From Chrysomallon squamiferum (lineage: Eukaryota; Mollusca; Gastropoda; Neomphalida; Peltospiridae): a stretch of DNA of 64,000 nt. The stretch's first letter is position 1. Each line of letters begins with the position of its first letter. The translations under genes and the position numbers were made by a program. The DNA lies in assembly GCA_012295275.1 (NCBI GenBank), contig CM022677.1, positions 12,780,934-12,844,933 on the forward strand, written 5' to 3'. The notes beneath the pieces were generated by a model that was not told the DNA's origin, did not search any database, and was given only the letters and a program-made list of their open reading frames with translations. Positions 16,442 through 55,963 of this stretch are shown piece by piece.

Positions 16442-16700
16442 GAGTTGAACTTGGCGCCAGATGAAAGAAGAATCCAGACACAGTTCAGTTCAGCTTTACA
16501 AGCGTGTTGTCTTCTTCCTTCACACTCGTAAGAAGTCACTGCACCACTGAGTTCCTTCTGTCGGACATACACATAGTTTTCGAACGCAAGTTTTGGATGA
16601 CCATACTCTGACGCTATGACCTTATATACTGTCTCATTCGTCTTAATTATTGATCAGTTGCCACATCAAAGGAATCTTTAGCATTTAATTAACCTGAATT
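16442..16700 (-). mobile_element. LTR-like end with TATA box and primer-binding-site-like motif
   Basis: On the minus strand a TATATAAG box lies at 16,628-16,621. About 160 bases downstream comes TGGCGCCAA (16,459-16,451), the type of motif used for tRNA priming just inside a 5' LTR. Orientation and position suit the pol remnant at 14,190-15,010. The upstream LTR limit is unclear, and no second LTR was found. In the right arm the TATA equivalent has decayed to TACATAAG, and the copy stops before the priming motif. Confidence 0.35.
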
Positions 16701-17376
16701 AGTAATTAGCTGACTGTCGTTAGCTTTGGTGTTAGATGATTTTTAATAATGTTTCAGCAGACGTTTTAGCAGATCAAAGTAATCCAAATGCCTCTGATCA
16801 AGTTCAATTAGTAATTAGCTGACTCTAGGTAGCTTTGACGAATTTATTGCAATTTTGCTTAAAAATAACTTTGAAAGGTATATTTGAAGAAAAATGGGGG
16901 CAATTGTGCTTAGGGGCAGTGTCCAGGGGGCAATTGACCTGATACCATAAAAAAAGCTGTTCATGAATGTAAATGAACTTGCTTTAGCAATTCTGATAAT
17001 GATCAATGACTTGACTATGGTAATTAGTGTTATTAAACAGTTTTATAAACACAAGAATCTTTGTTTTGGGGAAACATTCAAATTTTAATAATTGTTTTCA
17101 TTTGTTTAGATATTCTGAATAAATATCCCAAAACATCCATGTTTGAAGCTTGTTGACAACGGTGAACAAATCATGAATGTGCTAGGAGACTTGTTACCAT
17201 TGAGAAAGTAAAACATTACTCAGTAAGGAAACATTATTATTATCATTTCTATTTTTTGTTACGTTCACTTTAGCTGATGCCAAACGCAATCTCTTTTTCT
17301 AAAATCTTATATCTAGTACAAATTAATGCTAAATGCAAGCTTAATCTAAGAAAGCTGAATGCAAAAGTAAACTTGT

Positions 17377-17382
17377 TTTATT
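17377..17382 (-). terminator. AATAAA polyadenylation signal of the secreted orphan gene
   Basis: AATAAA on the minus strand about 145 bases past the stop codon at 17,525. The right-arm copy keeps it at 55,091-55,096. Confidence 0.55.
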
Positions 17383-17524
17383 TCAGCATAGAAATTGTTT
17401 CACACATAAGATTGTGAACTGGAAATCTGAAACTTAATATAATTATAATCATAAGCGCTAACAGGTTTTACATGTGAACTGTCATGTTATTTAAAACTGA
17501 CTGATTAGCTGACAACAATACTGA

Positions 17525-19333
17525 TTAGCGCGTGCGCAATAACACCAGATGGATATCCGGACTGAGAGTCAGATGTTTGGATTCGCATCTTCTGAAAAGT
17601 GTAAACGTTTTTCCATGTACACCATTCAGGTTCTCCATGACGCCGAACACGCTGGAGCTGTCCACCATGATGCTGTCGCTGTCTGTGTTGCCCTCGTCGA
17701 CGTACATTGATCGGAATGTGGCAAATGGAAATCCCTTACTGGACTGTTTAAATATGAGATCAGAAACAACGAGTTCCGTTCTGTCCACTTTCGAAATCAA
17801 CGTCAGCTTTGCTTTTTCTCCATTTCTGTAAAGAATCTTCAGCTCTCGTTTATCGACGTCGATATCCACTTGATCAATGGGAGCAGCAGGTCTGATCAGG
17901 TCAACATCAGATGTTCCAACCACAACTGATGTTCCAAACGGAATCCAGTCTAATCCTGCAGGAGGGAGGGGCAGCAGGCGTACGTTTCCATCTTGATAGA
18001 TAACAAGTGTCTCACTGTAACCCTCTGACCAAGGAACTGGAAGAATTATTTTAAAATAGTCTACTTTTCTATAAAGTTTGTCAGTATTTTTTACATATAC
18101 TTTCATGGTTTCCGGATTTCTCCACCAAAAGTCTATATCAACACCTATAACAGTGAACTCGTTACTGGTGTATATAGGAAAATATTTTTCAGGTTTCATA
18201 GGTTTTCTTTCCAATTTTATTTCTTCGATACAAATGGAAAATACATCCTGTGCGGATAATGAAATTTTGATCAGATTTACGTTGTGTTCGATCCAAGAAA
18301 GGTTTGGGATTTGCCAATCGACGTCAGTTTTCCCGGGTTGTAAACCAGTTTCTTTGAGCGCAATTAAATTTTTGTTTCTGTCTCTGTATGAAACCTGTAT
18401 TTTTACAAATGAGGTCACTGGTTTGATTTTTAGACTGAAGACTGACCCAATATCAGCATCTATGTAACCTTCTGATCTTCCTTTTAACATGAATGAAATT
18501 TCAATTACGGCTATTTTCGATGTGCTAGGTCCTGGATACACTTTCATAGTTGCCGAATTTGAAAATAAATGATTATTTATTTTATTCAAACAGAGGTGGG
18601 TAAAACTCCAGTAGAGAGGAGACAAAGCAACACAGTCAGTATTATTTGGTTCTCTTCTGTTTACAAAAGCTTTATACACTGGTAGAGTAGCTATTAGTTT
18701 GTACTGTTTCACGCTGTCGAGGTATACTGCTATTTTGACGTTGTCCTCTTCCGCACATTTAGATGGGTAACTTTTCTGTCTAAGTTTAGCTTTTTTGTCG
18801 ACATTAATTCGAGACGAAGAGTTCAGATGGGGCAGATCATTCGTACAGTGAAGTTTACACTGCAGCATGTCCTGCGCGAGACTGCTGTCATCAATATCTA
18901 GACTGACTGTGTTCAGTTCCACTCCATCAGATCCGTGAACCTGGATCTTTAAAATATACCAACCTCTTTCCAGAATTACTGATCCTTTCATCTCGGTACT
19001 GGAATGAAAAACATTCCAGTTATTTCCAGCTGTTTCTGGTGATATGGTGACAATGGATCCCATTTTCTTCTGGTTTAAAACTGCTGTGATGACTTCGGGA
19101 TCGTTGCCATTGGAGTATCGTAAACTGGAGATTTTTACCGTGCTTGTTTTCTTCAGACAGAAGTAAAAATTAATGATTTCGTAGCCTGTTAAAAACACTA
19201 CCTTCTTTGACAAAGCGTTTGATCGAAAATGTATTAGGTGTTTATCTCGAACCTCGGAGGCTGGTAATGGGTGAATGTTGCCCAGACATAATCTGCAGAA
19301 CGCTAAAAGTAGAACGGTCTTCACAACATACAT
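17525..19333 (-). CDS. Secreted orphan protein, single exon, 602 residues
   Basis: One uninterrupted frame from ATG to TAG. Residues 1-18 (MYVVKTVLLLAFCRLCLG) form a typical signal peptide, so the product is probably secreted. No transmembrane segment is visible after it. Residues about 265-385 alternate beta-strand-like hydrophobic stretches with a conserved-looking YRDRNKNLI and WIEHN, resembling a galactose-binding-like beta-sandwich. Residues 400-550 form a second probable beta-rich region with LLPLPPAGLDWIPFG and PFATFRSMYVDEG. I cannot name the family. The copy at 53,531-54,903 differs at about a dozen of some 457 shared residues, so most changes have not broken the frame. One extra C near the end relative to that copy extends this protein by about 15 codons. 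A compact promoter lies upstream and an AATAAA downstream. Confidence 0.85.
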   Translation of the reverse strand: MYVVKTVLLLAFCRLCLGNIHPLPASEVRDKHLIHFRSNALSKKVVFLTGYEIINFYFCLKKTSTVKISSLRYSNGNDPEVITAVLNQKKMGSIVTISPETAGNNWNVFHSSTEMKGSVILERGWYILKIQVHGSDGVELNTVSLDIDDSSLAQDMLQCKLHCTNDLPHLNSSSRINVDKKAKLRQKSYPSKCAEEDNVKIAVYLDSVKQYKLIATLPVYKAFVNRREPNNTDCVALSPLYWSFTHLCLNKINNHLFSNSATMKVYPGPSTSKIAVIEISFMLKGRSEGYIDADIGSVFSLKIKPVTSFVKIQVSYRDRNKNLIALKETGLQPGKTDVDWQIPNLSWIEHNVNLIKISLSAQDVFSICIEEIKLERKPMKPEKYFPIYTSNEFTVIGVDIDFWWRNPETMKVYVKNTDKLYRKVDYFKIILPVPWSEGYSETLVIYQDGNVRLLPLPPAGLDWIPFGTSVVVGTSDVDLIRPAAPIDQVDIDVDKRELKILYRNGEKAKLTLISKVDRTELVVSDLIFKQSSKGFPFATFRSMYVDEGNTDSDSIMVDSSSVFGVMENLNGVHGKTFTLFRRCESKHLTLSPDIHLVLLRTR

Positions 19334-19414
19334 TTTTCCAAAGTTTCAAAACTGGTTACGTATGATTCTTAGATAAGAAGACACAACAGGGCCCGGCTGC
19401 TGTAGCTCAGCTGG

Positions 19415-19434
19415 TTTATACACGTGTGACGTCA
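19415..19434 (-). promoter_or_regulatory. CRE-E-box-TATA core promoter of the secreted orphan gene
   Basis: On the minus strand three elements lie end to end: TGACGTCA (19,434-19,427), CACGTG (19,426-19,421) and TATAAA (19,420-19,415). A start about 30 bases downstream would leave a 5' UTR of roughly 55 bases before the ATG at 19,333. This would suit control by CREB/ATF and bHLH factors, which is inferred from the motifs only. The right-arm copy lacks the whole segment. Confidence 0.6.
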
Positions 19435-19499
19435 CTGTACTAATCGGTCTCCAGTCAGCGTTATGACTCAGTCGTTCAAAGAACTACTCTGAAAAATCG

Positions 19500-19609
19500 T
19501 AATTTAATGTCAGCTGTTAACCTTGGTTATATTTAGTTTTATAAACTAAATTTTATAATTAAATCCTTTAGCATAATAATATATACATACATAATATTAC
19601 AGACACCAA

Positions 19610-19641
<32 letters not shown>

Positions 19642-21281
19642 ACACACATACACATACACGCACACTCACATATATACTGGACAGGCTACAAACATAAACA
19701 GTCTCCCAGACAGATTATATACATAAATATACATACACGGGCACATGAACAAAAACATACACATACCCCACTTTCATTCATATAGTCATAAAATACACAA
19801 TCCCATATGTGCTATTATTGTAATATGGAAACTTAAAAACATATACGCAGTCATGTTTTAAACTTGTCACGTACTCATTCACATAGACAGACATATACAC
19901 ACCAGCAATAACTTATCTTCACACATGATACATACACACAATATGCAAACACAGACTAACTCATATATGTACATTCAGACACACACACACACACACATCT
20001 TCATTTTCTCTCAAATTAAGCCACATTTGTACCAAGTGCTTAATTTTCATCAGTTTTAACAGTATCTACTTAACAAGGTAAGCAAGCTATCAAAAGTGCA
20101 TTTTTTCTTCTCCTTAATTCCACAATTTGCCAATATCTACTACTGATTTTGCTTTTTCTTTATAACAATTTAGCATTTTACAAGTCTGAATTCACTGTTA
20201 ATTACAAAGTGAATCAAAATCTAACTGAAAGAATAAAAATATAAATTATAACATAAACTAATCGTAAGAAAGGATATAAAAAAAAAAACCAAAACCAATA
20301 GTAATCTGTACACGTCATGGATTAGCAATAAAAACTATGTAAAAAAAAAATATATATATACTATAAGAAAAAACTATTTTGTGTACAAAAGTTTCATTTC
20401 TTTTTTTAGTATTTAAACAAATTTCTGTTTATTTAAACAAAATTGTATCACCTCACATCAACTCCTGTAAACAAACACAAACACACACACACATGACAAC
20501 AACACCAACAACTGAAAGAAAAAGCATATTAAAAATAATTATTTTTCTTGTACAAACATACATTTGATAGCCATACAGAAAAATTAACTATAATCTAAAC
20601 TAAAATTATAATCTCTTTCAAATATTTATAATTTTTTATTATTAAACAATTATACAACTATTATTATACATCATGGAGGATTTATAATGATTTTTCTAAA
20701 TCACTGTTACATATGTAAATATATATAATCTTGATAGAGAATTATGCAAAATATTTATTAAGTAAAAAAAAAAAATAAATAAATAAAACTTTTTCCAGCA
20801 CTAAATAAAACTTGGTTTTGGTACATTGTGCTATTTTCGGTAACTCGATATATTATATTATATATTTGTTTTGTTTTTACATATACATACGTCTGGTTTA
20901 GACAAGTGTCCTGTGTACCCAGTTTCATGTGATAAATAGTAAAAAGTATACAATTACTATACCCTGCTAAACTAATAAATATTTCTCAAGCAAAATATAT
21001 AGACAAAGCATTTTAAATATATGGCAACATAAATTTTGTAAAAAAAAAATAATATGGTTACAAATATTGGCGCAAAAAAAAAAAATAATAATAATAAAAA
21101 AAAAAATAAATAAATAAATAAATAGAGGCAATTATAAAAAAAAAAAAAAAAAAAAAAAATCAAGAGAAATAAAACAGAGCAAGATTATTTTTTATTTGTT
21201 CTTGCAGATAGTCCTGCAGTTTATATCATAGATTATATTGATGTATTATTATAATCAGCCTGTCAGAATAATGGAATGTTA

Positions 21282-21330
<49 letters not shown>

Positions 21331-21840
21331 AAAATATACTCTTAAAGCTTCCAGGATTAATAGATAAAAAAAATAAAACAAATGTCTGTCATGGAAATAG
21401 TGACTCCACGGTTATGAATTAAATTAAATAAAGTCCTGTAGGAAATACTAGGTAAATGAAATAATGTTTGATTAAAGGCACTAAACAGAATGATCAGTAT
21501 GAAACATAATAATTAGTAATTCAGAGGTTTGTATACAGTTGAACTTGCATAATCAATGATTCTTATGTATTTATATTTTTATTTTTAACTTTAGGTAAAT
21601 GTATATGAGAGAGAGAGTTATATTTTGACATAAGGAAAACAATGATTAGTAAAAAAAAAAACTAGTATGTGCACAAAACCAAACACTTTTATAATATTAT
21701 TTTCAGTATAATTTAAAATATTTATATATAAATATAGTTTATTAACAAAACCAAGAATTTAGTGTTTAATATACACATCATTACAAACAAATTATATGAT
21801 CAACATCTATTGTAGCAGATAGATCACATTAGACAATCTA
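19500..21840. other. Upstream non-coding part of the left arm
   Basis: CA-rich repeats (19,609-19,670 and 19,978-19,998), a GT run (21,283-21,328) and A-rich runs (21,018-21,160). The piece 18,942-20,929, of which this is the distal part, is absent from the right arm. No coding frame is supported. Confidence 0.6.
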
Positions 21841-22112
21841 CTGATATATACTGTAGCTCAAAATATTCGGACTCTCTTTTTGCGATGGATTCTCAAAACC
21901 TTTATGAAAATAGCAGATACTCCAGGAAGAGGGAGACAAGGATCCTGTATCACATACATGGTGAAGAAACTCTTACCTTATTAAATTATCAGTTTCAGCA
22001 GATAAAGTGATTTTAAAAGATTTTAAGAACGCGAGCTCCCTTCAGTTTGTTTACGAAACTTCCAGCTACTTTGTGTAGGAACGCCAGTCGCACTGTCTTC
22101 ACAGCGCTTAAT

Positions 22113-22120
22113 TGACGTCA
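22113..22120. promoter_or_regulatory. CRE palindrome conserved in both arms
   Basis: TGACGTCA here is retained at 52,385-52,392 in the right arm. The nearby sequence is less AT-rich than its surroundings. It may mark an old promoter or enhancer, but no gene start is evident next to it. Confidence 0.3.
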
Positions 22121-22572
22121 CAAAATTGACAAAAAAAAAAAAATAAAAAAAAAAAAATGAAACGTCGGACCCGATTCAAATGTTGTTCCACAAAAAGTTT
22201 TGCCTCAGCAGGATCAGTTATGAGCGATTTCTTTTCTCTTCTTTTCTTTTTATTGCAAATAATCAATTTTATTGACCTAATTCAAACAAAGATTCACATT
22301 TTAATATTTTGAACACGACGTCAGGTGCCCTGAATCATTAGTTTAACCATCTGACTGGTTAAACAATGTAGATGTATTTATTTAATTACTTATTGAATTA
22401 TTAATTTAAAAACAGAATAACTTAAATATTATTTTCTAAAGAGATACTGTATTTTTTTGTTGTCTTATTATCTTTGCTAACAATAAAAATTTTGAGCTGA
22501 TATTATTATTGTAAAAATATAGTCTAATCACATTTTATATTTCTGTTTCACTTGTTCATATATTTTCTCTTT

Positions 22573-22579
<7 letters not shown>

Positions 22580-22639
<60 letters not shown>
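22580..22639. repeat. (CT)n microsatellite, left arm
   Basis: CT run of about 60 bp. Its partner is the GA run at 51,878-51,937 in the right arm. Confidence 0.95.
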
Positions 22640-22642
<3 letters not shown>

Positions 22643-22749
22643 CTTTCAAAAAACAACAACATAAAATTCTATGACTATCTGTTTTAGTAATTTTTCTTGT
22701 TAATTGAAAGATTATATTTATTTCAGGCAGCTGAGTTTTACTACCAGAT

Positions 22750-23311
22750 TTTGAATATACACTTGTTATTCAGATGTTATAATTACAAATGTTAATATTT
22801 TTTTTAAAAATGTTATTTTTTTCTATTTCTGTTGTTGCCTCGTTATTCATTATTAATGCAGTTTTAAGATAAATTTGAATGAACTGTTACGAATGCAATA
22901 AACATCTCTTCTAAAAACACATTTGTATTTCAGTGTGATAGAAGAATCTTCCACTTGTAAATGTCCCTTGCTGTGTCTTTTGTATCTTAAGCCTGGGAAC
23001 TGCGGAATTAATTATCACTAAAGAGTTCTTGTTTTGCAGAATGATCTGGCGACAGACGTCTAGCGGCAAGGTTCAACACGTTGTCAAATAACGCGAGTTC
23101 CTTTTCTTTCTTATAAAAGCCCGGACATTTTTTTTTTTTTTAAGGATACGACAGACACGCCCGCTGGCCTGTCAGAAAGTGTGGCTGTCGTAGACGTGCC
23201 TCACAACAGCTCGCTCTGATTAGCAAGTCAAATTTTTCCATTTGCATTTGTTCAGGCAGAGCGAGTTGTGTTTTCTTTACCAACGAAATTACTGTTCGGG
23301 ATAGCAGTTGA

Positions 23312-23378
<67 letters not shown>

Positions 23379-23395
23379 TTTGCTATCTTTTATTG
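22750..23395. other. Segment present only in the left arm
   Basis: At 51,735-51,810 the right arm joins the sequence flanking this segment directly: the GGCAGCTGAGTTTTACTACC edge is followed at once by the TTTTTTCTTTTTCATAATTT edge. About 645 bp were therefore inserted in the left arm or lost from the right. No clear target-site duplication is visible. It holds a second CT run (23,319-23,372) and the terminal-exon copy at 23,154-23,218. Confidence 0.65.
23154..23218 (+). CDS. Short terminal exon copy, paralogous to 9,875-9,939
   Basis: A GATACGACAG acceptor is followed by 65 bases ending HNSSL and TGA, alignable without gaps to the minus-strand exon at 9,875-9,939. A TTATAAAAG motif lies about 40 bases before it. 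No upstream exon could be joined with confidence. It lies in the left-arm-only segment, so it has no right-arm partner. Confidence 0.35.
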
Positions 23396-23529
23396 TTATT
23401 TTTTCTTTTTCATAATTTAAAAAACAAAAAAAAAAACCCCAATTAATTTCTCTTATATTTCTACTATTTTAAAGCATTATTGTCCTGGGTTGTATTTTTA
23501 TACGTGTTTCATTGAGCAGGCTGTTGCGC

Positions 23530-23945
23530 ATTGTAGTTTTTTTCCTGTATAAAGTTTTGCATCGAAATGGGAAACTCTTGGCAGCTGAACAGGTTCGAGT
23601 GATTTATATTGACACAATACGAGGCAGCAGGGATCTGTATTATAATGAGCATACATTTCGCGTAAGTAAAAAGAATGGGTAGAGAACAGACTGGAAATGT
23701 GTTGTTAACTCGCAGTGTCTGTGGACAACATGTTGCAGACGGCAGAACAGATGCAGCAACAACCACGCGGCCGTGCCATTCCAATACAGAAATGTAGAAA
23801 CACTTTGGCAATGACGGTCACCGAACAAATAACCACTTGGAAGGATGGCGCCATGAAATCAATCAAATCGCCCAGAAGAGTCATCCGACCACAACGAGAA
23901 CTTTTGTATTTCAACTGCGAGCATCAACGGAAATATTTTTTAAAA
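23530..23945 (+). pseudogene. FLYWCH-type zinc-finger remnant
   Basis: The plus-strand frame reads VIYIDTIRGSRDLYYNEHTF, then TDWKC, a second Cys (NSQC) and, in a shifted frame, NNHAAVP. This is the order of a FLYWCH finger (aromatic, Leu, aromatic, WxC, C, HxH), with the first His apparently lost. FLYWCH domains occur in host regulators and in Mutator-like transposases; I see no transposase domain here. A TAG between the aromatic part and WKC is shared with the right-arm copy, so the gene was already dead before the arms separated. A 16-bp loss near 23,713 is specific to this copy. Confidence 0.55.
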
Positions 23946-23949
23946 TAAA

Positions 23950-26310
23950 TCACCTTCGTTTGCTTTCCTTCTTCATTTTTTCATCATTTATTTATTTATT
24001 TATTTACTATTTTGTTTCTTTATTTTTTTACTTATTCTGTGTTTTGTTGTTCTCTCATGTATATACTTCTCTTTGAATATTTAATTTCTTGTACATTTTG
24101 TAACAGTTGTAGTCTCCGTTATTGTCATTATTGTACGTTTTGCGTTCACACTGAATCGTGGAACTGAATTATGGAAACAACTGATGTATTACTGAAATTT
24201 GAATTAAAATGTTATGCTGTTTTTATGTTGAATAGTTTGTTGTATTAACATATACAAATTAACATACAGAGAGATAGACACACAGACATACGACGTAAGG
24301 ATAGATTTTTACACCAGAGCGTTAAAACTTTGGTATTGTTGTATATATCTTTAAAATTTAGAAACGAACTGTTACTGCTAACACGTGCAGTGGTACAGAA
24401 GTAGTTCGTTGTTACTTTTGACTACACAAAACACCGTCAACCAGGTAAAAGGAAAATTAATGAGATAGATCCTAATTAGTACACAAGTTTTTCTACGTCA
24501 CAGAGATACAGTGAAGATATATTAACAACAAATCCCGTGACCGTAGAATTCATTTAGCCCCATTTACACCATTTATTCTACATCCAGGGCCCTACATGGC
24601 AGATACACAATGAGAAATATATTAACGTGGTATTTTATTGAGTTCTCTAGAAATTACGTTACATTTACTGTTACTAGCTGTTTTTAATGAATACACTGTG
24701 ATTGATATGTAATAACGAATATTTTGTTAAGAATACTATATTATAGATGATTTTTACAGAGCATAATGGAAAAAGAGTTTTGTAGTTTACATGATATTAT
24801 AGATATTCAGATATTTAGGATTTCTTCGCTAATACAGTTACGCAGATCTAATACTACGCTGTAAATTACAATAAAAGGTGAAGCAGTAATATTAACCGAA
24901 TATTTTCAAAAATTCAGCTGTTTCCAGACAAACGTCCTTTGTCTTATTAACATAACTAGAATACAGAAGACGTGCCTAGAATAAAAGTGAGAAGATGCTG
25001 GATTAGGTTGATATAAATAAGAAATTATATTGATAATTAGAGTTTATGCCGATAACCTTTATTTTATTAAGTTAATCAGGAAGGACATTCCATAATTTAA
25101 TGAAGATACTGGGCTTCTCCTAAAATATAAAAAATTAGTATCACTCATTATAAATATATTCTGTGATGTAGATAATAAAATATAATATTAATTTTCTACG
25201 TAAACAACATAAATAGCGCAATCGGAATTAAATTGCGTCTTATAAAAAATTATAGTGTAAGTAGCAGTATTCTAAGTTATTCGTATAAAAAGTGTTTGTG
25301 TTATAAAAGATACGGGATATCTCAAGTTGAAAGTACGATCATCAATGTTAAAATAAAAAAAAAGAAAACGTTTTTTTCATTTATTCCCGTTATCAGAATA
25401 GTTTATAGTTGAGTCTGTTAGGCCCTATTAACATGAGCGCAGTGCATACTTCAGTTTTCATTAATAACATAATTTATTCATTAATATCGAAGTCGTTTTT
25501 GTAGTTGTGATTATACATTGCGGTTCCATAAACAAGAGATTCTCATGTAATTAATATGACGTGGATATAACGGAATATCACATTAAACTTTTCGTTTATG
25601 TTTAATAATTCAAAAATTTACTGAGTAACAGTACGCTGTATATTTCTCCAAATTCAGGTATTGTCCATGAGTAAATATCATCATTTTAATCTATAGTGAT
25701 TATTTTAATGATCATGTTAGTCTTTAATGTAATGAAATGTCTTTTGTGATTCTCCTATGAAATTAAAGGATAAACTTACAGTTGCTATTATTATATTCAG
25801 CGGTGCAGCTATTAGAAAGCAATATCAATGATAACAAAATTTTAAATTGTTTTCACTATAAACTGTTTTGACGATATTAAAGTTCTACAACTCTATATGC
25901 GTAACCCGTGACGCGTGTTTTTCTCACTGTGTCCAGTTTATTCTACAAACAGTTTCTACTGACAGAAAAGAAACAAAGTAAATTCCTCTCTGAATTTCTT
26001 GTTATCTGTGTAAAAACCTGAAATGCTCATCACATTAAAAACTGATAATTATTTTTGAGGAGTTATTTTTTTGATTTTTTTGATTTATTATTATTTTGTT
26101 TCATTTGTTTTAGTTTTTCTTCAATTTTTTAATTTTTTAATTAATTATTATTTTTTATGATTCTAATAATATATTATTCGTTTACACTGAGCTGGATCGT
26201 ATAAACTGACTTAGATAAAACTGGTTATTGCTTTAATTCGAGACGAATTTAGTGTATTTTTTAAATAAGTAAGAACGTAAATAAGTAAGTATATTAATAA
26301 ATAAATAAAT
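23950..26310. other. Non-coding block conserved between the arms
   Basis: About 2.3 kb of AT-rich sequence with no coding frame. It aligns with 48,870-51,180 in reverse complement, with scattered substitutions and small indels. I recognise no element in it. Confidence 0.55.
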
Positions 26311-26314
26311 AAAT

Positions 26315-26690
26315 ATTGCCGAATGCATGGACCATCCCAAGTTTAATCCGTTTAAAGAATTTGATTTGTTCTGGCGAAGCAACGAAGATTTGCGAGCTGA
26401 GCTATACGCACTTCGAAAGCCGCCAAAACACTACTACGAGCTTCTCAGAAAGAACAAAGAGTTGTGCAATATTCTCACAGATTTATTGTATTAGAACAAA
26501 ACTTTGATCTGTCTGTCAGTCTCCTTTCCTTAGGTTCTTCTACAATAGAAAACAGAATTTACTCTGTAAAATTACTGATTGTGTTATATTTCTTTTTACT
26601 TTTTTTCTGTTGGCTACGATTTTATTTCTAAACTCACTGCTCCAGGGAGCATTAATTTCATTGTACCTTAACATCAAAACATTATTTATT
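26315..26690 (+). pseudogene. 3' fragment of the small gene at 147-758, left-arm copy
   Basis: From about 26,317 the frame matches the last 55 or so codons of exon 2 of the gene at the window start, ending at the same TAG (26,492-26,494), with one Arg to His change near YYELL. Homology continues into the 3' flank to about 26,690. Upstream it stops at a TAAA-repeat edge, so exon 1, the promoter and half of exon 2 are missing. No start codon context survives, so it is a dead fragment although its frame is open. Confidence 0.6.
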
Positions 26691-27139
26691 TATAAATGCA
26701 ATATTGTTTATTTATTTATTATTTTATTTCTTGCTTTATTTCTTTAGTTACTACAATTTAAAAAAAAAGAAGAAATTTTGTTAACGTCATATACATTCTG
26801 TACCACTTTTCAGTTTAAACTATATAAAAAGCCACTACTAAACATATTCTTTCATTATTTGTATCTATGTGTATATACACATACATATCCACATGCATCA
26901 AAAAAATACACACATACACACACAAACACATAAACAAACACTCATACAAACATACATTGGCTCAGGGTACATTTGTGATTCATATGTTTCAGAAAAAAAG
27001 TATTTAATTACTTTTATATTTTTTAAAATGTATTTATTTATAGTTGTTTTTTCTTCTTTCTTTTTTCCTTTTTTTTTTCTCATTTACAATACACATACAG
27101 TGTTCAACAAAAATATTTTGTATTTGTAAATATTTTGAA

Positions 27140-28480: not shown

Positions 28481-28734
28481 AACATTATCTGAACTCCAAA
28501 AACAAATCTGATAATAAAGACAATTTATCTAGAACTACTATGTGTGCTTTATGTTGTTTTTTACCTGCTGAAATTAAATAGCAATAAAAATTGAATAAAA
28601 TACCTATTTATAATGAATTATATATATTTTTTTTAAATAATTAGTTACTAATTTAAAATCAAACACACATTAAAATAGAAAAACATATTTCATAAACATA
28701 CACAATTAAAAAAACTCATAATTCATCATAAACT

Positions 28735-29010
28735 AACACACACATATATGCACATACACATGTATACATATGCATACATATACAAAAAATCCATACAAAC
28801 ACAGATACAAACACCCACAATCACACAGAAACACATACACACACAGACACTCAGACTTACATATATACAGACACACATACACCATACAAATGCAGACAAA
28901 TTCACATACACACACATACAAACTTGCATACAAGACACATACACACTCACCACACATACACAGAAACACACTCCCACACACACATACATACATACATACA
29001 TAAAAACTCA
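28735..29010. repeat. CA/ATAC-rich repeat block, left arm
   Basis: Runs of ACAC and ATAC. Its reverse complement is found at 46,435-46,695. Frames on both strands are of low complexity and not genes. Confidence 0.8.
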
Positions 29011-41240: not shown

Positions 41241-41259
41241 TGCTGGCTTCTGGCCTGAC

Positions 41260-43529: not shown

Positions 43530-43559
43530 GTAAGACACATTTTCAGAAAATGTTCACTA

Positions 43560-44064
43560 GAGCACAAAAGAATGCTTTTTTTGATGTGTATTATTTTTAT
43601 CAGGGGCTAAATCAAAGGATTTGCTGGGGTAATTCAATTTAAAAATAATCATCTAAGAAGAAAAAAACAAAAAAAATCAATTTTTATCTTTTTTTTTTTT
43701 TTTTAAATCAAATAAATCAAGGATTTGCTTTCAATTTAAAAGAAAAATGAAGGGTTGGGGGAAAATCAAGGGTTATAATTAGTGTAAATATATTTGAAAT
43801 TATGTAATTATTTCAATAACTAATCTTTAAAAAATAAGAAATAATAATTTTAAAAATGATAAAAAATAAAAAAAAAAAAAAAAAAAAAATAAGAAAAAAA
43901 TTTCCCGAATATTTTATACTTTGCCTTTTACATTTTGGAACAATTCAAAAAATTAGTTTAAAAATGTACAAATTGAAATGTCTTCTAATTTTTTATAATC
44001 TGTATTTTCTGTTTAATTCAGTTAAAAAGCTTGGGAAAAAAAAAAATAATAAATAAATAAATAA

Positions 44065-44112
<48 letters not shown>

Positions 44113-45400: not shown

Positions 45401-45479
45401 GTTTTCTTCACATCTGCTGTTGTTGCTGTAGTTGTTGTAGTTGTTTCATCACCACTTTCTGCTGCTGTTCTCTTTAAAC

Positions 45480-46290
45480 TAGTTTCTGACTGAACTGTGT
45501 TTTTGACTGTGTTTTTCACTGACTGTGTTTGCTGTTCTCTTTAAAGCTGTGTTACTGCTGTTTTTTCACTGACTGTGTTACTGCTGTTTTCTTTTTAAGC
45601 TGACTTGTTACTGAACTGTGTTTTCACTGACTGTGTTACTGCTGTTCTCTTTAACTGACTGTGTTACTGGTGTTTTCACTGACTGTGTTACTGGTGTTTT
45701 CACTGAACTGTGTTTTCACTGACTGTTTTGTTCTCTTTAAGCTAGTTTCTGAACTGTGTTTTCTGGTGTTGTTTTCTTTAAGCTACTGTGTTACTGGTGT
45801 TTTCACTGACTGTGTTACTGCTGTTTTCACTGTGTTACTGGTGTTTTCACTCACTGAACTGTTTTACTGACTGTTTTGTTCTCTTTTCTGACTGACTGTG
45901 TGTTACTGGTGTTTTCACTCTGACTGTTTCTACTGGTGTTTTCACTGACTGTGTTTTCACTGACTGTGTTACTGCTTTTCACTGACTTCTGACTGAACTG
46001 TGTTTTCACTGACTGTGTTACTGTGTTTTCACTGACTGTGTTACTGGTGTTTTCACTGACTGTTGGTGTTTTCACTGACTGTGTTACTGGTGTTTTTTAA
46101 CTGACTGTGTTTTTTCACTGACTGTTTTGGTGTTTTCACTGACTGTGTTACTGCTGTTTTTCTTTAACTGAACTGTGTTTTCACTGACTGTGTTACTGCT
46201 GTTTTCTGACTGTTACTGTGTTTTTCTGACTGTGTTACTGGTGTTTTTTTTTTCACTGACTGTGTTTTTCTGCTGTTTTCTTTTCTATCA
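45480..46290. repeat. 24-bp minisatellite, right-arm version, expanded and disordered
   Basis: Reverse complement of the left-arm array, about 800 bp against 430 bp. Units such as TGTTACTGGTGTTTTCACTG are interleaved with TTCTCTTTAAGCTAGTTTCTG segments, and indels remove the three-base phase. No long open frame remains. Confidence 0.8.
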
Positions 46291-46434
46291 CTGGCACATG
46301 CTCTACCTCCATCATCTTTTTACCTACAAACAAGTGATATTTTTATATACCTCTTATCTCTTTATAGCACTGTGTGTCATTTTGTTTCTACATAATTATC
46401 TTTGTATGATGTGTAAGAGTGAGTTTTTATGGTG

Positions 46435-47510
46435 CATGTTATATGTATGTACGTAAGTGTGTGTGTGTGTGTGTGTGTGAGTGTGTATGTGTCTTGTATA
46501 TAAGTTTATATGTGTGTGTGTGTGTGTGAATTTGTCTGTATTTGTATGGTGTATGTGTGTCTATATATGTGTAAGTCTGAGTGTCTGTGTGTGTGTGTTT
46601 CTGTGTGAGTGTGTGTGTTTGTATCTGTGTTTGTATGGATTTTTTGTATATGTATGCATATGTATACATGTGTATGTGCATATATGTGTGTGTTAGTTTA
46701 TGATGAATTATGAGTTTTTTTAATTGTGTATGTTTATGGAATATGTTTTTCTATTTTAATGTGAGTGTTTGATTTTAAATTAGTAACTAATTATTTTTAA
46801 AAAAAAATTTAAGATAATTAATTATAAATAGGTATTTTATTCAATTTTTATTGCTATTTAATTTCAGCAGGTAAAAAACAACATAAAGCACACATAGTAG
46901 TTCTAGATAAATTGTCTTTATTATCAGATTTGTTTTTGGTGTTCAGATAATGTTTTCTGAACCAATAATTTATTTGGCATTGATTACATCCAAACTTACA
47001 CTCAGTAATACAAGCACAAGTATTCATACATACATACCTAGATATAAGTACACATAATCCATACTAATACATATATACACTAATACAGACACATATATAT
47101 CTATACATCTATACAAACATTCTAAAAGATACACATACACACATTCAGAAACATATTCATGATCACTAGATAATTTGACTAAATAAATTCACACAAACAA
47201 CACACACAAAACAACAAACAAACACACAGATACACAAATACATTCATACTTTTACACACATAATACAAACATATCTACACATACATACAGACATACAAAG
47301 ATACAGACATACAAACATACAAACATACATACATATAAACATACATACATACTTAAACATACACATACAATACAAACATACACAGATACACATACATGCA
47401 AACATGCAGAAATACATACATAGTCATGCAGACATAATAAGCACACAGATACATGCAGATACAGACTTACACAAATATATGCACACTCAAATGCACTTAA
47501 TATAAACACA
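46435..47510. repeat. GT-, ATAC- and CA-rich repeats, right arm
   Basis: Counterparts of the left-arm blocks at 28,735-29,010 (here 46,435-46,695) and 27,860-28,440 (here 46,980-47,510). Frames are of low complexity. Confidence 0.7.
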
Positions 47511-47519
47511 GATTGTATG

Positions 47520-48480
47520 TAAGAATTGTCATTATTATTTATCACTGAGTAGCATGATTTATCACAGTGTTTTCAGTACTGCAGTTACTAACATATTGCT
47601 GATTATGTAAGGTTTTGTTTGTAATACAGAGTGGTCTTGATAGTCAGGTTAGTTATTAAAACATTTGTAGTGTTAAGGTTCTGATGTGTTTACACAAAAT
47701 ACAGAACATATATATGATTGTTTTTTATATACAGATGTGCACATGCCTTGCAGAAGCATGACAAATATTTAGACTTTTTAAAATTATTTTTATTTATTTA
47801 TTTAATTATATTATTTCTTAATTATTTTTATATTTTTCTAAAAAAAAAATGTTTTAAAATATATAATCTGCAAAATGCCAGTTTTTTTACAAACCAGAAT
47901 GTAGAAACCAGTTATTTATCAAGTGTGTGTGAACAGATAATTATAATAATAGTAAGTAGCCTGTAGATGATAATTATAATAATAGTGAGCAGAGCTGTAT
48001 CAATTTTCATTTTTCTCTGACATAATTTCCTGGTCTAACCACACCTAAACTGTGATATGTTAAAACAAACACAAAAGATAGGAAAAACAACAATTTTTTT
48101 TTATTTACATGTGATTAGACATTTTTGTTTTGATTTATTTTTTTTTTTTTTTTTGTTTTTTATTATTTTTTTTTTAAAATATTATTTTGTTTTTCAAAAT
48201 ATTTACAAATACAAAATATTTTTTGTTGAACACTGTATGTGTAAATGTAAATGAAAAAAAAAAAAAAAAAATACATTTTAAAAATATAAAAAAATTAACT
48301 ATAAAAATAAATAAATTTTTTGTAAAAATATAAAAGTAATTAAATATTTTTTTATGTGTATATACTTAAACATATTTTTTTCTGAAACATATCTTTTTTT
48401 TAAATTGTAGTAACTAAAGAAATAAAGCAAGAAATAAAATAATAAATAAATAAATAAACAATATTGCATTTATAAATAAA
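47520..48480. other. Non-coding right-arm stretch
   Basis: Matches left-arm 26,690-27,840 in reverse complement. T- and A-rich runs at 48,135-48,200 and 48,253-48,272. Nothing coding. Confidence 0.5.
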
Positions 48481-48487
48481 TAATGTT

Positions 48488-48861
48488 TTGATGTTAAGGT
48501 ACAATGAAATTAATGCTCCCTGGAGCAGTGAGTTTAGAAATAAAATCGTAGCCAACAGAAAAAAAGTAAAAAGAAATATAACACAATCAGTAATTTTACA
48601 GAGAGTAAAGTCTGTTTTCTATTGTAGAAGAACCTAAGGAAAGGAGACTGACAGACAAATCAAAGTTTTGTTCTAATACAATAAATCTGTGAGAATATTG
48701 CACAACTCTTTGTTCTTTCTGAGAAGCTCGTAGTAGCGTTTTGGCGGCTTTCGAAGTGCGTATAGCTCAGCTCGCAAATCTTCGTTGCTTCGCCAGAACA
48801 AATCAAATTCTTTAAACGGATTAAACTTGGGATGGTCCATGCATTCGGCAATATTTATTTA
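48488..48861 (-). pseudogene. 3' fragment of the small gene at 147-758, right-arm copy
   Basis: Same 3' piece as at 26,315-26,690. The frame from the CMDHP segment to the TAG is open, and it keeps the Arg that the left copy changed. Homology with 1-330 includes the 3' flank. It stops at the same TAAA-repeat edge as the left copy, so the fragment formed once, before the arms separated. Confidence 0.6.
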
Positions 48862-48869
48862 TTTATTTA

Positions 48870-51180
48870 TTAATATACTTACTTATTTACGTTCTTACTT
48901 ATTTAAAAAATACACTAAATTCGTCTCGAATTAAAGCAATAACCAGTTTTATCTAAGTCAGTTTATACGATCCAGCTCAGTGTAAACGAATAATATATTA
49001 TTAGAATCATAAAAAATAATAATTAATTAAAAAATTAAAAAATTGAAGAAAAACTAAAACAAATGAAACAAAATAATTATAAATCAAAAAAATAATTATC
49101 AGTTTTTAATGTGATGAGCATTTCAGGTTTTTACACAGATAACAAGAAATTGAGAGAGGAATTTACTTTGTTTCTTTTCTGTCAGTAGAAACTGTTTGTA
49201 GAATAAACTGGACTCAGTGAGAAAAACACGCGTCCCGGGTTACGCATATAGAGTTGTAGAACTTTAATATCGTCAAAACAGTTTATAGTGAAAACAATTT
49301 ACAATTTTGTTATCATTGATATTGCTTTCTAATAGCTGCACCGCTGAATATAATAATAACAACTGTAAGCTTATCCTTTAATTTCATAGGAGAATCACAA
49401 AAGACATTTCATTACATTAAAGACTAACATGATCATTAAAATAATCACTATAGATTAAAATGATGATATTTACTCATGGACAATACCTGAATTTGGAGAA
49501 ATATACAGCGTACTTTTACTCAATAAATTTTAGAATTATTAAACATAAACGAAAAGTGTAATGTGATATTCCGTTATATCCACGTCATATTAATTACACG
49601 AGAATCTCTTGTTTATGGAACCGCAATGTATAATCACAACTACAAAAACGACTTCGATATTAATATTAATGAATAAATTATGTTATTAATGAAAACTGAA
49701 GTATGCACTGCGCTCATGTTAATAGGGCCTAACACACTCAACTATAAACTATTCTGATAACGGGAATAAACGACAAAAAACGTTTTCTTCTTTTTTACTT
49801 TAACATTGATGATCGTACTTTCCACTTGAGATATCCCGTATCTTTTATAACACAAACACTTTTTATACGAATAACTTAGAACACTGCTACTTACACTATA
49901 ATCTTTTAGAAGACGCAATTTAATTCCGATTGCGCTATTTATGTTGTTTACGTAGAAAATTAATATTATATTTTATTATCTACATCACAGAATATATTTA
50001 TAATTAGTGATACTAATTTTTTATATTTTAGGAGAAGCCCAGTATCTTCATTAAATTATGGAATGTCCTTCCTGATTAACTTAATAAAATAAAGGTTATC
50101 GGCATAAACTCTAATTATCAATATAATTTCTTATTTATATCAACCTAATCCAGCATCTTCTCACTTTTATTCTAGGCACCTCTTCTGTATTCTAGTTATG
50201 TTAATGAGACAAAGGACGTTTGTCTGGAAACAGATGAATTTTTAAAAATATTCGGTTAATATTACTGCTTCACCTTTTATTGTAATTTACAGCGTAGTAT
50301 TAGATCTGCGTAACTGTATTAGCGAAGAAATCCTAAATATCTGAATATCTATAATATCATGTAAACTACAAAACTCTTTTTCCATTATGCTCTGTAAAAA
50401 TCATCTATAATAGTATTCTTAACAAAATATTCGTTATTACATATCAATCACAGTGTATTCATTAAAAACAGCTAGTAACAGTAAATGTAACGTAATTTGT
50501 TGAGAACTCAATAAAATACCACGTTAATATATTTCTCATTGTGTATCTGCCATTGTAGGGCCCTGGATGTAGAATAAATGGTGTAAATGGGGCTAAATGA
50601 ATTCTACGGTCACGGGATTTGTTGTTAATATATCTTCACTGTATCTCTGTGACGTAGAAAAACTTATGTACTAATTAGGATCTATCTCATTAATTTTCCT
50701 TTTACCTGGTTGACGGTGTTTGCAGTCAAAAGGTAAAAACGAACTACTTCTGTACCACTGCACGTGTTAGCAGTAACAGTACGTTTCTAAATTTTAAAGA
50801 TATATACAACACTACCTAAGTTTTAACGCTCTGGTGTAAAAATATATCCTTACGCCGTATGGCTGTGTGTCTATCTCTCTGTATGTTAATTTGTATATGT
50901 TAATACAACAAACATAAAAACAGCATAACATTTTTATTCATATTTCAGTAATACATTAATTGTTTCCATAATTCAGTTCCACGATTCAGTGTGAACACAA
51001 AACGTACAATAATGACAATAATGGAGACTACAATTGTTACAAAATGTACAAGAAATTAAATATTCAAAGAGAAGTATATACATGAGAGAACAACAAAACA
51101 CAGAATAAGTAAAAAAATAAAGAAACAAAATAGTAAATAAATAAATAAATAAATAAATGATGAAGAAATGAAGAAGGAAA
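48870..51180. other. Non-coding block conserved between the arms
   Basis: Partner of 23,950-26,310. No gene recognised. Confidence 0.5.
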
Positions 51181-51204
51181 GCAAACGAAGGTGATTTATT
51201 TTAA

Positions 51205-51690
51205 CTAATATTTCCGTTGATGCTCGCAGTTGAAATACAAAAGTTCTCGTTGTGGTCGGATGACTCTTCTGGGCGATTTGATTGATTTCATGGCGCCATC
51301 CTTCCAAGTGGTTATTTGTTCGGTGACCGTCATTGTCAACGTGTTTCTACATTTCTGTATTGGAATGGCACGGCCGCGTGGTTGTTGCTGCATCTGTTCT
51401 GCCGTCTGCAACATGTTGTCCACAGACACGACGTAGGTTCTGCACTGCGAGTTAACAACACATTTCCAGTCTGTTCTCTACCCATTCTTTTTACTTACGC
51501 GAAATGTATGCTCGTTAAAATACAGATCCCTGCTGCCTCGTATTGTGTCAATATAAATCACTCGAACCTGCTCAGCTGCCAAGAGTTTCCCATTTCGATG
51601 CAAAACTTTATACAGGAAAAAACTACAATGCGCAACAGCCTGCTCAATGAAACACGTATAAAAATACAACCCAGGACAATAATGCTTTAA
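51205..51690 (-). pseudogene. FLYWCH-type zinc-finger remnant, right-arm copy
   Basis: Same order as the left copy: IDTIRGSRDLYFNEHTF, an in-frame TAG, TDWKC, NSQC. It keeps 16 bases (CAGAACCTACGTCGTG) that the left copy lacks, so the segment after the second Cys reads VVSVDNMLQTAEQ, as expected for the domain. The His end remains out of frame and altered. Confidence 0.55.
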
Positions 51691-51872
51691 AATAGTAGAG
51701 AAATTAATGTTTTTGTGTTTTTTTTTGTGTGTTTTTTTTTTTTAAATTATGAAAAAGAAAAAATGACTGGTAGTAAAACTCAGCTGCCTGAAATAAATAT
51801 AATCTTTCAATTAACAAGAAAAATTACTAAAACAGATAGTCATAGAATTTTATGTTGTTGTTTTTTTGAAAG

Positions 51873-51877
<5 letters not shown>

Positions 51878-51937
<60 letters not shown>
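51878..51937. repeat. (GA)n microsatellite, right arm
   Basis: Partner of the CT run at 22,580-22,639. Confidence 0.95.
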
Positions 51938-51939
<2 letters not shown>

Positions 51940-51942
<3 letters not shown>

Positions 51943-53151
51943 AAAGAGAAAATATATGAACAAGTGAAACAGAAATATAAAATGTGATTAGACTATATTT
52001 TTACAATAATAATATCAGCTCAAAATGTTTATTGTTAGCAAAGATAATAAGACAACAAAAGAATACAGTATCTCTTTAGAAAATAATATTTAAGTTATTC
52101 TGTTTTTAAATGAATAATTCAATAAGTAATTAAATAAATACATCTACATTGTTTAACCAGTCAGATGGTTAAACTAATGATTCGGGGCACCTGACATCGT
52201 GTTCAAAATATTAAAATGTGAATCTTTGTTTGAATAAGGTCAATACAATTGATTATTTGCAATAAAACGAAAAGAAGAGAAAAGAAATCGCTCGTAACTG
52301 ATCCTGCTGAGGCAAAACGTTTTGTGGAACAACATTTCAATCGGGTCCGACGTTTGATTTTTTTTTTTTTTTTTGTCAATTTTGTGACGTCAGTTATGCG
52401 CTGTGGCGTTCCTACACAAAGTAGCTGGAAGTTTCGTAAACAAACTGAAGATAGCTCGCGTTCTTAAAATCTTTTAAATTCACTTTATCTGCTGAAACTG
52501 ATAATTTAATAAGGTAAGGGTTTCTTCACCATGTATGTGATACTGGATCCTTGTCTCCCTCTTCCTGGAGTATCTGCTATTTTCATAAATGTTTTGAGAA
52601 TCCATCGCAAAAAGAGAGTCCGAATATTTTGAGCTTACAGTATTATATCAGTAGATTGTCTAATGTGATCTATCTGCCACAATAGATGTTGATCATATAA
52701 TTTGTTTGTAATGATGTGTATATTAAACACTAAATTCTTGGTTTTGTTAATAAACTATATTTATATATAAATATTTTAAATTATACTGAAAATAATATTA
52801 TAAAAGTGTTTGGTTTTGTGCACATACTATTTTTTTTTTTTACTAATCATTGTTTTCCTTATGTCAAAATATAACTCTCTCTCTCATATACATTTACCTA
52901 AAGTTAAAAATAAAAATATAAATACATAAGAATCATTGATTATGCAAGTTCAACTGTATACAAACCTGTGAATTACTAATTATTATGTTTCATTCTGTTT
53001 AGTGCCTTTAATCAAACATTATTTCATTTTCCTAGTATTTCCTACAGGACTTTATTTAATTTAATTCATAACCGTGGAGTCACTATTTCCATGACAGACA
53101 TTTTTTATATTTTTTTATCTATTAATCCTGGAAGCTTTAAGAGTATATTTT

Positions 53152-53204
<53 letters not shown>

Positions 53205-53530
53205 ACATTCCATTATTCTGACAGGCTGATTATAATAATACATCAATATAATCTATGATATAAACTGCAGGACTATCTGCAAGAACAAATAAAAAATAAT
53301 CTTGCTCTGTTTTATTTCTCTTGATTTGTTTTTGTTTGTTTGTGGTTTTTTTTTATAATTGCCTCTATTTATTTATTTATTTTTTAATTATTATTATTAT
53401 TTTTTTATAATATTTGTAACCAGAGATTTTTTTGTTCTTAAAGATATTATGTTGCTTTTTATGTTCACTAGCTTTGTCTATATATTTAGTTTAGCAGGGT
53501 ATAGTAATTGTATACTTTTTTCTATTTATC
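51940..53530. other. Non-coding right-arm stretch
   Basis: Partner of left 20,930-22,575. It holds the conserved CRE at 52,385-52,392 and an AC run at 53,155-53,198. The plus-strand frame that enters from 53,359 is AT-rich filler fused to the gene copy by the deletion. Confidence 0.55.
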
Positions 53531-54903
53531 AGGTTCACGGATCTGATGGAGTGGAACTGAACACAGTCAGTCTAGATATTGATGACAGCAGTCTCGCGCA
53601 GGACATGCTGCAGTGTAAACTTCACTGTACGAGTGATCTGCCCCATCTGAACTCTTCGTCTCGAATTAATGTCGACAAAAAAGCTAATCTTAGACAGAAA
53701 AGTTACCCATCTAAATGTGCGGAAGAGGACAACGTGAAAATACCAGTATACCTCGACAGCGTGAAACAGTACAAACTAATAGCTACTCTACCAGTGTATA
53801 AAGCTTTTGTAAACAGAAGAGAACCAAATAATACTGACTGTGTTGCTTTGTCTCCTCTCTACTGGAGTTTTACCCACCTCTGTTTGAATAAAATAAACAA
53901 TCATTTATTTTCAAATTCGGCAACTATGAAAGTGTATCCAGGACCTAACACATCGAAAATTGCCGTAATTGAAATTTCATTCATGTTAAAAGGAAGATCA
54001 GAAGGTTACATAGATGCTGATATTGGGTCAGTCTTCAGTCTAAAACTCAAACCAGTGACCTCATTTGTAAAAATACAGGTTTCATACAGAGACAGAAACA
54101 AAAATTTAATTGCGATCAAAGAAACTGGTTTACAACCCGGGAAAACTGTCGTCGATTGGCAAATCCCAAACCTTTCATGGATCGAACACAACGTAAATCT
54201 GATCAAAATTTCATTATCCGCACAGGATGTATTTTCCATTTGTATCGAAGAAATAAAATTGGAAAGAAAACCTATGAAACCTGAAAAGCATTTTCCTATA
54301 TACGCCAGTAACGAGTTCACTGTTATAGGTGTTGATATAGACTTTTGGTGGAGAAATCCGGAAACCATGAAAGTATATGTAAAAAATACTGACAAGCTTT
54401 TTAGAAAAGTAGATTATTTTAAAATAATTCTTCCAGTTCCTTGGTCAGAGGGTTACAGTGAGACACTTGTTATCTATCAAGATGGAAACGTACGCCTGCT
54501 GCCCCTCCCTCCTGCAGGATTAGACTGGATTCCGTTTGGAACATCAGTTGTGGTTGGAACATGTGATGTTGACCTGATCAGACCTGCTGCTCCCATTGAT
54601 CAAGTGGATATCGACGTCGATAAACGAGAGCTGAAGATTCTTTACAGAAATGGAGAAAAAGCAAAGCTGACGTTGATTTCCAAAGTGGACAGAACGGAAC
54701 TCGTTGTTTCTGATCTCATGTTTAAACAGTCCAGTAAGGGATTTCCATTTGCCACATTCCGATCAATGTACGTCGACGAGGGCAACACAGACAGCGACAG
54801 CATCATGGTGGACAGCTCCAGCGTTTTCGGCGTCATGGAAAACCTGAATGGTGTAGATGGTAAAACGTTTACACTTTTCAGAAGATGCGAATCAAACATC
54901 TGA
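53531..54903 (+). pseudogene. 5'-truncated copy of the secreted orphan gene
   Basis: Homology to the left gene starts abruptly at codon 131 (QVHGSDG) and runs to the end with about a dozen amino-acid changes and no frameshift. The signal peptide, first 130 codons and promoter are gone. Upstream sequence is the far flank (left 20,930 onward), so the open frame to 53,359 is fortuitous. It stops at ESNI because it lacks one C present in the left copy. An AATAAA remains at 55,091. It is probably not expressed as a secreted protein unless a new promoter was acquired. Confidence 0.8.
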
Positions 54904-55090
54904 CTCTCAGTCCGGATATCCATCTGGAAGTATTGCGCACGCGCTACTCAGTATTGTTGTCAGGTAATCAGTCAGTTTTAAATAACATGACAGTTCACAT
55001 GTAAAACTTGTTAGCGTTTATGTTTATAATTATATTAAGTTTCAGATTTCCAGTTCACAGGTCTTATGTGTGAAACAGTTTCTTTTCTGA

Positions 55091-55096
55091 AATAAA
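55091..55096 (+). terminator. AATAAA polyadenylation signal, right-arm copy
   Basis: Counterpart of 17,377-17,382, about 190 bases past the stop codon. Confidence 0.45.
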
Positions 55097-55539
55097 ACAA
55101 GTTTATTTTTGCATTCAGCTGTCTTAGATTAAGCTTACATTTGGCATTAATTTGGACTAGATATAAGATTTTAGAAAAAGAGATTGCGTTGGGCATCAGC
55201 TAAAGTGAACATAACAAAAAATAGAAATGATAATAATAATGTTTCCTTACTGAGTAATGATTTACTTTCACAGTGATAACAAGTCTCCTTCATGATTTGT
55301 TCACCGTTGGCAACAAGCTTCAAACATGGATGTTTTGGGATATTTATTCAGAATATCTAAACAAATGAAAACAATTATTAAAATTTGAAAGTTTCCCCAA
55401 AATAAAGATTCTTGTCTTTATAACACTGTTAAATAACACTAATTACCATAGTCAAGTCATTGATCATTATCAGAATTGCTAAAGCAAGTTCATTTACACT
55501 CATAAACAGCTTTTTTTATGGTATCAGGTCAATTGCCCC

Positions 55540-55963
55540 CTGGACACTGCCCCTAAGGACAACTGCCCCCATTTTTCTTCAAATATACCTTTCATAGTTA
55601 TTTTTAAGCAACATTCCAATAAATTCGTCAAAGCTACCTAAAGTCAGCTAATTACTAATTGAACTTGATCAGAGGCATTTGAATTACTTTGATCTGCTAA
55701 AACGTCTGCTGAAACATATTATCAAAAATCATCTAACACCAAAGCTAACGAGAGTCAGCTAATTACTAATTCAGGCTAATTAAATGCTAAAGATTCCTTT
55801 GATTTGGCAACTGATCAATAATTAAGACGAATGAGACAGTACATAAGGTCATAGCGTCAGAGTACGGTCATCCAAAACTTTCGTTCGAAAACTATGTGTA
55901 TGTCCGACAGAAGGAACTCATTGGTGCAGTGATTTCTTACCAGTGTGAATGAAGAAGGCAACA
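55540..55963 (+). mobile_element. LTR-like segment, right-arm copy, truncated
   Basis: Matches left 16,508-16,940 in reverse complement. The TATA-like box reads TACATAAG near 55,841. The copy ends about 50 bases short of the priming-site-like motif found on the left. GGGGGCAATT-type motifs near 55,545 occur in both copies. Confidence 0.3.

Follow-up and report, generated by a model that had tools for sequence, protein, structure and literature searches.

We analyzed a window of 64,000 bases of Chrysomallon squamiferum DNA (C13:12,780,934-12,844,933, plus strand; the pseudo-chromosome C13 has 28,278,047 bases), in which two long segments resemble each other in inverted order. The evidence favors the view that these segments, arm A (window 16,505-29,590) and its inverted counterpart arm B (ca. 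45,450-55,963), are mosaics belonging to one duplication family with at least 14 long copies between ca. 2 and 15 Mb of C13, and that their palindromic appearance probably arises from a scaffold join. The features concerned are as follows.

16,505 to 29,590, plus strand: arm A, one copy of the duplication family (self-BLAST); its left end is only the stop of similarity to B, and its right end is a contig end
45,450 to 55,963, minus strand: arm B, another copy, inverted relative to A in the assembly; it breaks off at 55,963, and its inner end is approximate, inside a 24-base repeat array
29,591 to 29,790, no strand: run of exactly 200 N between the A-bearing and the B-bearing contig (N-run scan)
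29,791 to 45,450, no strand: so-called spacer, with which the B contig begins (alignment to other C13 copies)
18,944 to 20,929, no strand: segment of ca. 2 kb in A, absent from B (self-BLAST, whole-arm alignment)
22,747 to 23,397, no strand: segment of ca. 650 bases in A, absent from B (self-BLAST, whole-arm alignment)

A preliminary description of the window had reported a mirrored duplication of a single pair of arms, sharply bordered on both outer sides and ending inward at 29,590. The inverted similarity was confirmed; the two-sided border, the role of 29,590 as a border and the singularity of the pair were not. The mirrored landmarks lie about where they had been placed, and self-BLAST recovered four minus-strand blocks far beyond chance (bit scores of 2442 to 5426): 16,505-18,943/55,963-53,530 (96.5% identity), 20,930-22,752/53,531-51,760 (93.3%), 23,398-26,767/51,764-48,394 (95.8%), and 27,390-29,503/47,986-45,938 (88.3%). 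In self-comparison the similarity is collinear, running inward from 16,505 as far as the contig end (29,590) in A and from 55,963 to ca. 45,450 in B. Whole-arm alignment gave 299 substitutions in 9,967 columns (3.00%) and 68 indels shorter than 30 bases, while the two largest indels, of 1,988 and 648 bases, are both A-only sequence; the arms are therefore not one sequence assembled twice, as had rightly been claimed. The ca. 2-kb segment was most likely lost by B, because its gene part is kept in all 10 of the other full copies examined; the join in B where it is gone has a 2-base (TG) overlap.

The geometry of the pair depends on what lies between the arms. The contig carrying A gives out within a 24-base tandem array or immediately after it, and the next contig begins with the spacer, so that 200 N, overlooked when 29,590 was taken for a duplication border, separate A from the spacer, and the two arms and the spacer do not form one contiguous sequence. 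The suspicion of mis-scaffolding at this point, also voiced in the preliminary description, was well placed, since the gap sits precisely there. As no contig joins A to B, the inner border, the spacer and the inverted arrangement all rest on one scaffold join, and a palindrome is therefore not established. A neighboring 200-N gap lies to the left of A (C13:12,747,016-12,747,215), and the A-bearing contig measures at most ca. 63 kb (4,934 bases of that interval were unread). In the published assembly, built from Nanopore reads with canu and smartdenovo followed by polishing, 1,025 contigs were scaffolded into 15 groups, with 7 left unanchored, by 3D-DNA using Hi-C data from a second specimen (Sun et al. 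2020; PMC7142155). From these contig and group counts we derived a genome-wide rate of about one gap per 400 kb. The 324 kb of C13 that we read (26 stretches plus the window) contain seven 200-N gaps, leaving aside two N runs of other lengths; because the stretches were picked at copies and not randomly, this density is to be taken as a local figure.

We then turned to the number of copies, searching the assembly (404,604,130 bases, 22 contigs) with DNA stretches. With 1,818 bases of the arm gene as the query (best 40 of 43 candidates scored), we found at least 44 matches, 38 of them on C13 (1.57 to 15.05 Mb) and 6 on C14. At least 14, A and B included, reached ≥96% identity over ≥1,200 bases and, among the matches listed, all of these lay on C13 between 2.1 and 15.0 Mb, so that A and B are not a singular pair. 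Sequence of ≥1 kb at ≥90% identity in two or more places is what defines a segmental duplication; here there are at least 14 such places, and A and the copy at 6.38 Mb share 98.35% identity over 10.3 kb. The copies end at varied positions, on the left at window 4,252, 9,654, 14,193, 15,591, and others and on the right at 25,097, 25,795, and others, some of these ends being the end of a retrieved stretch or a gap. Judged from the alignments, this pattern is unlike that of a transposon with fixed ends, and with varied ends and copies that are not dispersed genome-wide, the family is not simply a transposable element. On C14, a long but old relative of the arm gene (C14:13,798,555-13,800,285; 67% over 1,725 bases) possibly lies near the ancestral locus.

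Ten of the 14 long C13 copies are in minus and four in plus orientation. Of the 13 pairs of neighboring copies, 8 are inverted, compared with a mean of 5.7 from shuffled orientations (P = 0.12); there is thus no excess of inverted neighbors among these copies, and an inverted neighbor is an ordinary event here. A second inverted pair of A-like segments lies 130 kb off (C13:12,632,455-12,654,433; 98.1% over 3.47 kb), and its halves, too, are separated by a 200-N gap. These data bear on whether the assembly shows a real long inverted repeat, with A, spacer and B as assembled and arms able to pair or convert. The mirrored order with 3.0% substitutions would fit it, as would the pair at 12.632-12.654 Mb and the closeness of the inner parts of A and B (1.7 to 2.0% apart, versus 6 to 19% to copies outside the 12.7- to 12.8-Mb cluster). 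However, the join is spanned by no contig, the arms are not mutual nearest relatives in the outer two blocks analyzed below, inverted neighbors are not in excess, and 200-N gaps lie between the arms of the 12.64-Mb and 12.72/12.80-Mb pairs too (the 14.21/14.25-Mb pair is seen in part). We consider such a repeat improbable.

Relationships among the copies were studied with trees and approximately unbiased (AU) tests in four arm blocks, the last two of which overlap. In the outer block (16.5 to 18.9 kb; 2.4 kb, 12 rows), A groups with the 6.38-Mb copy (1.24% apart; support, 100/99), while B is nearest to the 14.139-Mb copy (2.19%; support just 79/93); A and B differ by 3.04%, and their sisterhood is rejected (p-AU, 0.00025). 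At 20.9 to 22.6 kb (8 rows), B groups with the 12.72-Mb copy (1.25%; 100/100), and sisterhood of A and B is again rejected (p-AU, 1.4e-5). Different sisters in the outer blocks make A and B unlike conversion-matched arms or two alleles of one locus. The 12.72-Mb copy differs from B by 3.21% in the outer block and by 1.25 and 1.38% in two other blocks; its grouping with B in the outer block was rejected (p-AU, 0.025, for a pair picked after the trees were seen), and the best match of its outer flank lies at 14.25 Mb (4.8 kb at 98.8%). The nearest relative, as these trees and alignments indicate, is thus different between parts of one copy, a mosaic that exchange among copies would yield.

Three points weigh against this reading. 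In the block at 23.5 to 25.1 kb (7 rows), a single group unites the 12.72-Mb copy with A and B, whose sisterhood is not rejected (p-AU, 0.235), and at 24.5 to 25.8 kb, which the 12.72-Mb copy does not reach, a tree of six rows makes A and B sisters (100/99); overall, A plus B was rejected in two of the four blocks, not rejected in one, and recovered in one. There is therefore a real local subfamily of A, B, and the 12.72-Mb copy. In addition, the mosaic could be a chimeric consensus of noisy Nanopore reads.

Some distances fall near the published heterozygosity estimate of 1.38% (PMC7142155), as would be expected of uncollapsed haplotypes, that is, contigs carrying two alleles of one locus that were both kept and set apart. 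A and the 6.38-Mb copy, 1.24% apart in the outer block, match from where the retrieved stretch begins until no more than 40 bases before that contig ends; B and the 12.72-Mb copy are 1.25 and 1.38% apart in two blocks; and the word “haplotig” is absent from the main text of PMC7142155. Against this, A and B are 3.0% apart, have different sisters and unrelated flanks; B and the 12.72-Mb copy are 3.21% apart in the outer block; and up to 14 copies are more than two alleles can account for. The assembly (407.8 Mb) is also smaller than the estimated genome (444.4 Mb), so wholesale duplication is not suggested (PMC7142155). Retained alleles may explain some close pairs, to judge from their divergence (A/6.38 Mb and, in part, B/12.72 Mb), but not A/B, and as an account of the window they seem doubtful. 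Of the interpretation offered in the preliminary description, then, the doubt about the join was supported, while neither a palindrome nor haplotypes laid side by side fits as stated.

The outer borders also proved asymmetric. The flanking DNA is the following.

14,000 to 16,504, no strand: DNA left of A's supposed outer border, into which the duplication continues (99% to C13:6.378-6.381 Mb)
55,964 to 58,200, no strand: DNA to the right of the border of B, with no relation to the flank of A; an older C13 repeat with ca. 81 to 94% identity to its relatives

B does end at 55,963, as described, but the A side continues. The block 16,440-16,760, across A's outer border, is present in all 10 other copies that reach it (87.6 to 98.5%), one further copy (7.76 Mb) stopping at a gap short of it, and the outer border therefore belongs to B alone. 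The region at C13:6.374-6.384 Mb matches window 9,654-19,933 in a single alignment (98.35%, 10,324 columns), which places the best outer relative of A 6.4 Mb away. Inverted arms flanking a unique-looking spacer might bring to mind a single large element, transposon or virus-like, whose terminal inverted repeats measure 10 kb and whose termini would be expected to be constant. The outer end of the arms is no terminus, given that 10 of 10 other copies run beyond it, and the spacer copy at 7.765 Mb meets an arm copy only across a 200-N gap and at a different arm end; this explanation is hardly credible. A long-terminal-repeat (LTR) mobile element was rejected as well, the border not being a terminus.

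The A flank (14,000-16,500) recurs at many further C13 places with 82 to 96% identity. Inspected by eye, its minus strand appears to carry a Ty3/Gypsy-like element in decay, of which an LTR-like piece stops near 16,463; Pfam returned no domain in 14,361-14,693. Short TTAGGG-type arrays (13,531-13,590 and 13,825-13,902) also lie inside A's duplicated flank and are found in the copies at 6.378, 12.638, 12.653, and 15.050 Mb.

The concentration of these sequences in one part of C13 extends beyond the arm gene. Three further window stretches were searched, with the best 40 of 884, 460, and 259 candidates scored, and 35 of 40, 35 of 41, and 39 of 52 of the rows tallied fell on C13 below 16 Mb; these tallies are lower bounds, because they come from lists of best candidates. 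For the flank 14,000-16,500, all 29 tallied rows at ≥82% were on C13 below 16 Mb (52 of 68 rows tallied; one untallied 34-base row, at 94%, was on C1). The other two stretches had some places at ≥82% on C7, C10, and C14, and the search with 55,964-58,200 gave two such places at C13:22.85 Mb. This concentration, together with the dense 200-N gaps and a 3D-DNA scaffold made from a second specimen (PMC7142155), is what might be expected of a scaffolding bin, in which repeat-rich contigs from many chromosomes were pulled into the first half of C13 by ambiguous Hi-C mapping. On the other hand, the element-like parts of 14,000-16,500 have relatives at 70 to 81% on C1, C2, C3, C6, C12, and C14, so those chromosomes retain repeats of their own. 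That observation is not decisive, and we regard a bin as possible, if unlikely.

Returning to a duplication family seen through a scaffold join, we propose that repeated segmental duplication would have scattered copies of the arm in both orientations over C13, and that deletions and breaks afterwards, probably along with exchanges among the copies, would have given each stretch a different nearest relative. The assembler would then have broken contigs inside these repeats, and Hi-C scaffolding would have placed the A contig ahead of the B contig, separated by 200 N; a plus and a minus copy would thereby have come to lie 35 kb apart and to look like a palindrome. We infer that the copies spread by duplication and ectopic exchange, not by assembly chimerism, and that the block truly lies on one chromosome.

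Intrachromosomal segmental duplications (low-copy repeats) are kilobase copies with >90% identity on one chromosome, in both orientations, mosaic and gene-bearing, and they cause assembly gaps. The family of A and B shares these features but differs in that nearly all matches lie in half of one pseudo-chromosome and in being known from the assembly alone. False duplications, or haplotigs, likewise show similar contigs adjoining across scaffold gaps in a heterozygous genome, but A and B diverge beyond the mean heterozygosity and have different nearest relatives. In mammalian Y ampliconic palindromes, a multicopy gene lies inside inverted repeats and the family is restricted to the chromosome. 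The present case is alike in both respects and differs in that the arms are 97% identical, are not closest relatives in their outer half, and form no contiguous palindrome.

Two arrays and the arm gene complete the inventory of the arms.

29,145 to 29,574, no strand: tandem array of a 24-base unit where the contig of A ends, with 14.3 units, 97% matches and no indels over 29,145-29,488
45,454 to 46,290, no strand: related 24-base array in B, much less regular, with 66% matches and 21% indels over 45,513-46,247
17,528 to 19,345, minus strand: single-exon open frame of 606 codons in A (open reading frame [ORF], homologues, Pfam, predicted fold)
53,530 to 54,944, plus strand: arm gene in B, without the first 402 bases and the DNA upstream of them; aligned to A, it shows a one-base gap

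The irregularity of the B array reflects either real decay or a poorly polished Nanopore consensus. A third array of this family, in opposite orientation, lies just left of the window (C13:12,777,634-12,779,693), adjoining a copy of B's spacer end (window 44,987-45,349, 85%). The spacer is itself duplicated: its part at 30,768-38,743 recurs at C13:7,765,205-7,773,999, the longest piece having 97.6% identity over 6,008 columns. That spacer copy also opens a contig; an arm copy lies next to it on the far side of a 200-N gap, but joined by a different end of the arm.

Among 12 copies of the arm gene examined, 5 are open over at least 600 codons, 6 are interrupted, and B is truncated. The ratio of nonsynonymous to synonymous substitution rates (dN/dS), pooled over all pairs of copies, was 0.65, and selection on the gene is therefore weak at most. 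The protein has 24 database relatives, of which the 11 with organism names are all from molluscs (best named relative, Haliotis asinina, 43%; one unnamed protein reaches 51%), and the carbohydrate-binding module (CBM)-like family PF14683 of Pfam matches 2 of the 24. The predicted model (mean predicted local distance difference test [pLDDT], 85.2; predicted template modeling score [pTM], 0.69) consists almost entirely of beta strands, and its first helix looks like a signal. We read the product as a secreted mollusc-type protein with predicted CBM-like domains, of a putative glycan-binding type. Solved structures did not provide a name: three sequence matches at an E value of 0.4 were taken as chance, and Foldseek template modeling (TM) scores were mostly <0.3, the best single-domain match being the agarase CBM 2cdo (TM, 0.69 by target length; E value, 8.4e-4).

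Across 19 other or arm ORFs, Pfam gave one match above the cutoff, a 2OG-Fe(II) oxygenase, and two weak matches below it, DUF6990 and Spec3. To the right of B, an open frame at 58,429-59,115 (minus strand) matches the catalytic domain of prolyl 4-hydroxylase alpha-2 in one uninterrupted stretch (7zsc; E value, 6.8e-51; Pfam PF13640) and could be an intronless copy. RNA gene searches gave no match with Rfam and none with ARAGORN, the latter run under its bacterial code setting.

A far more speculative idea is that the first 16 Mb of C13 are a real chromosome-restricted ampliconic block, in which a gene for a secreted protein and its surroundings have been multiplied and would still be exchanging, perhaps a formerly sex-linked or recombination-poor region left when the lineage turned hermaphroditic. 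C. squamiferum is reported as the sole known simultaneous hermaphrodite in its family (PMC4470333). We think this very unlikely. Our literature searches found no paper pairing C. squamiferum with segmental duplication and none combining ampliconic, mollusc, and palindrome. The analysis does away with a palindrome that was striking but unsupported, and it shows the probable cause of that appearance. If the C13 block is not real, gene counts, order, and orientation below 16 Mb of C13 are not to be trusted; if it is real, half a chromosome of this unusual snail would be made of private duplications.

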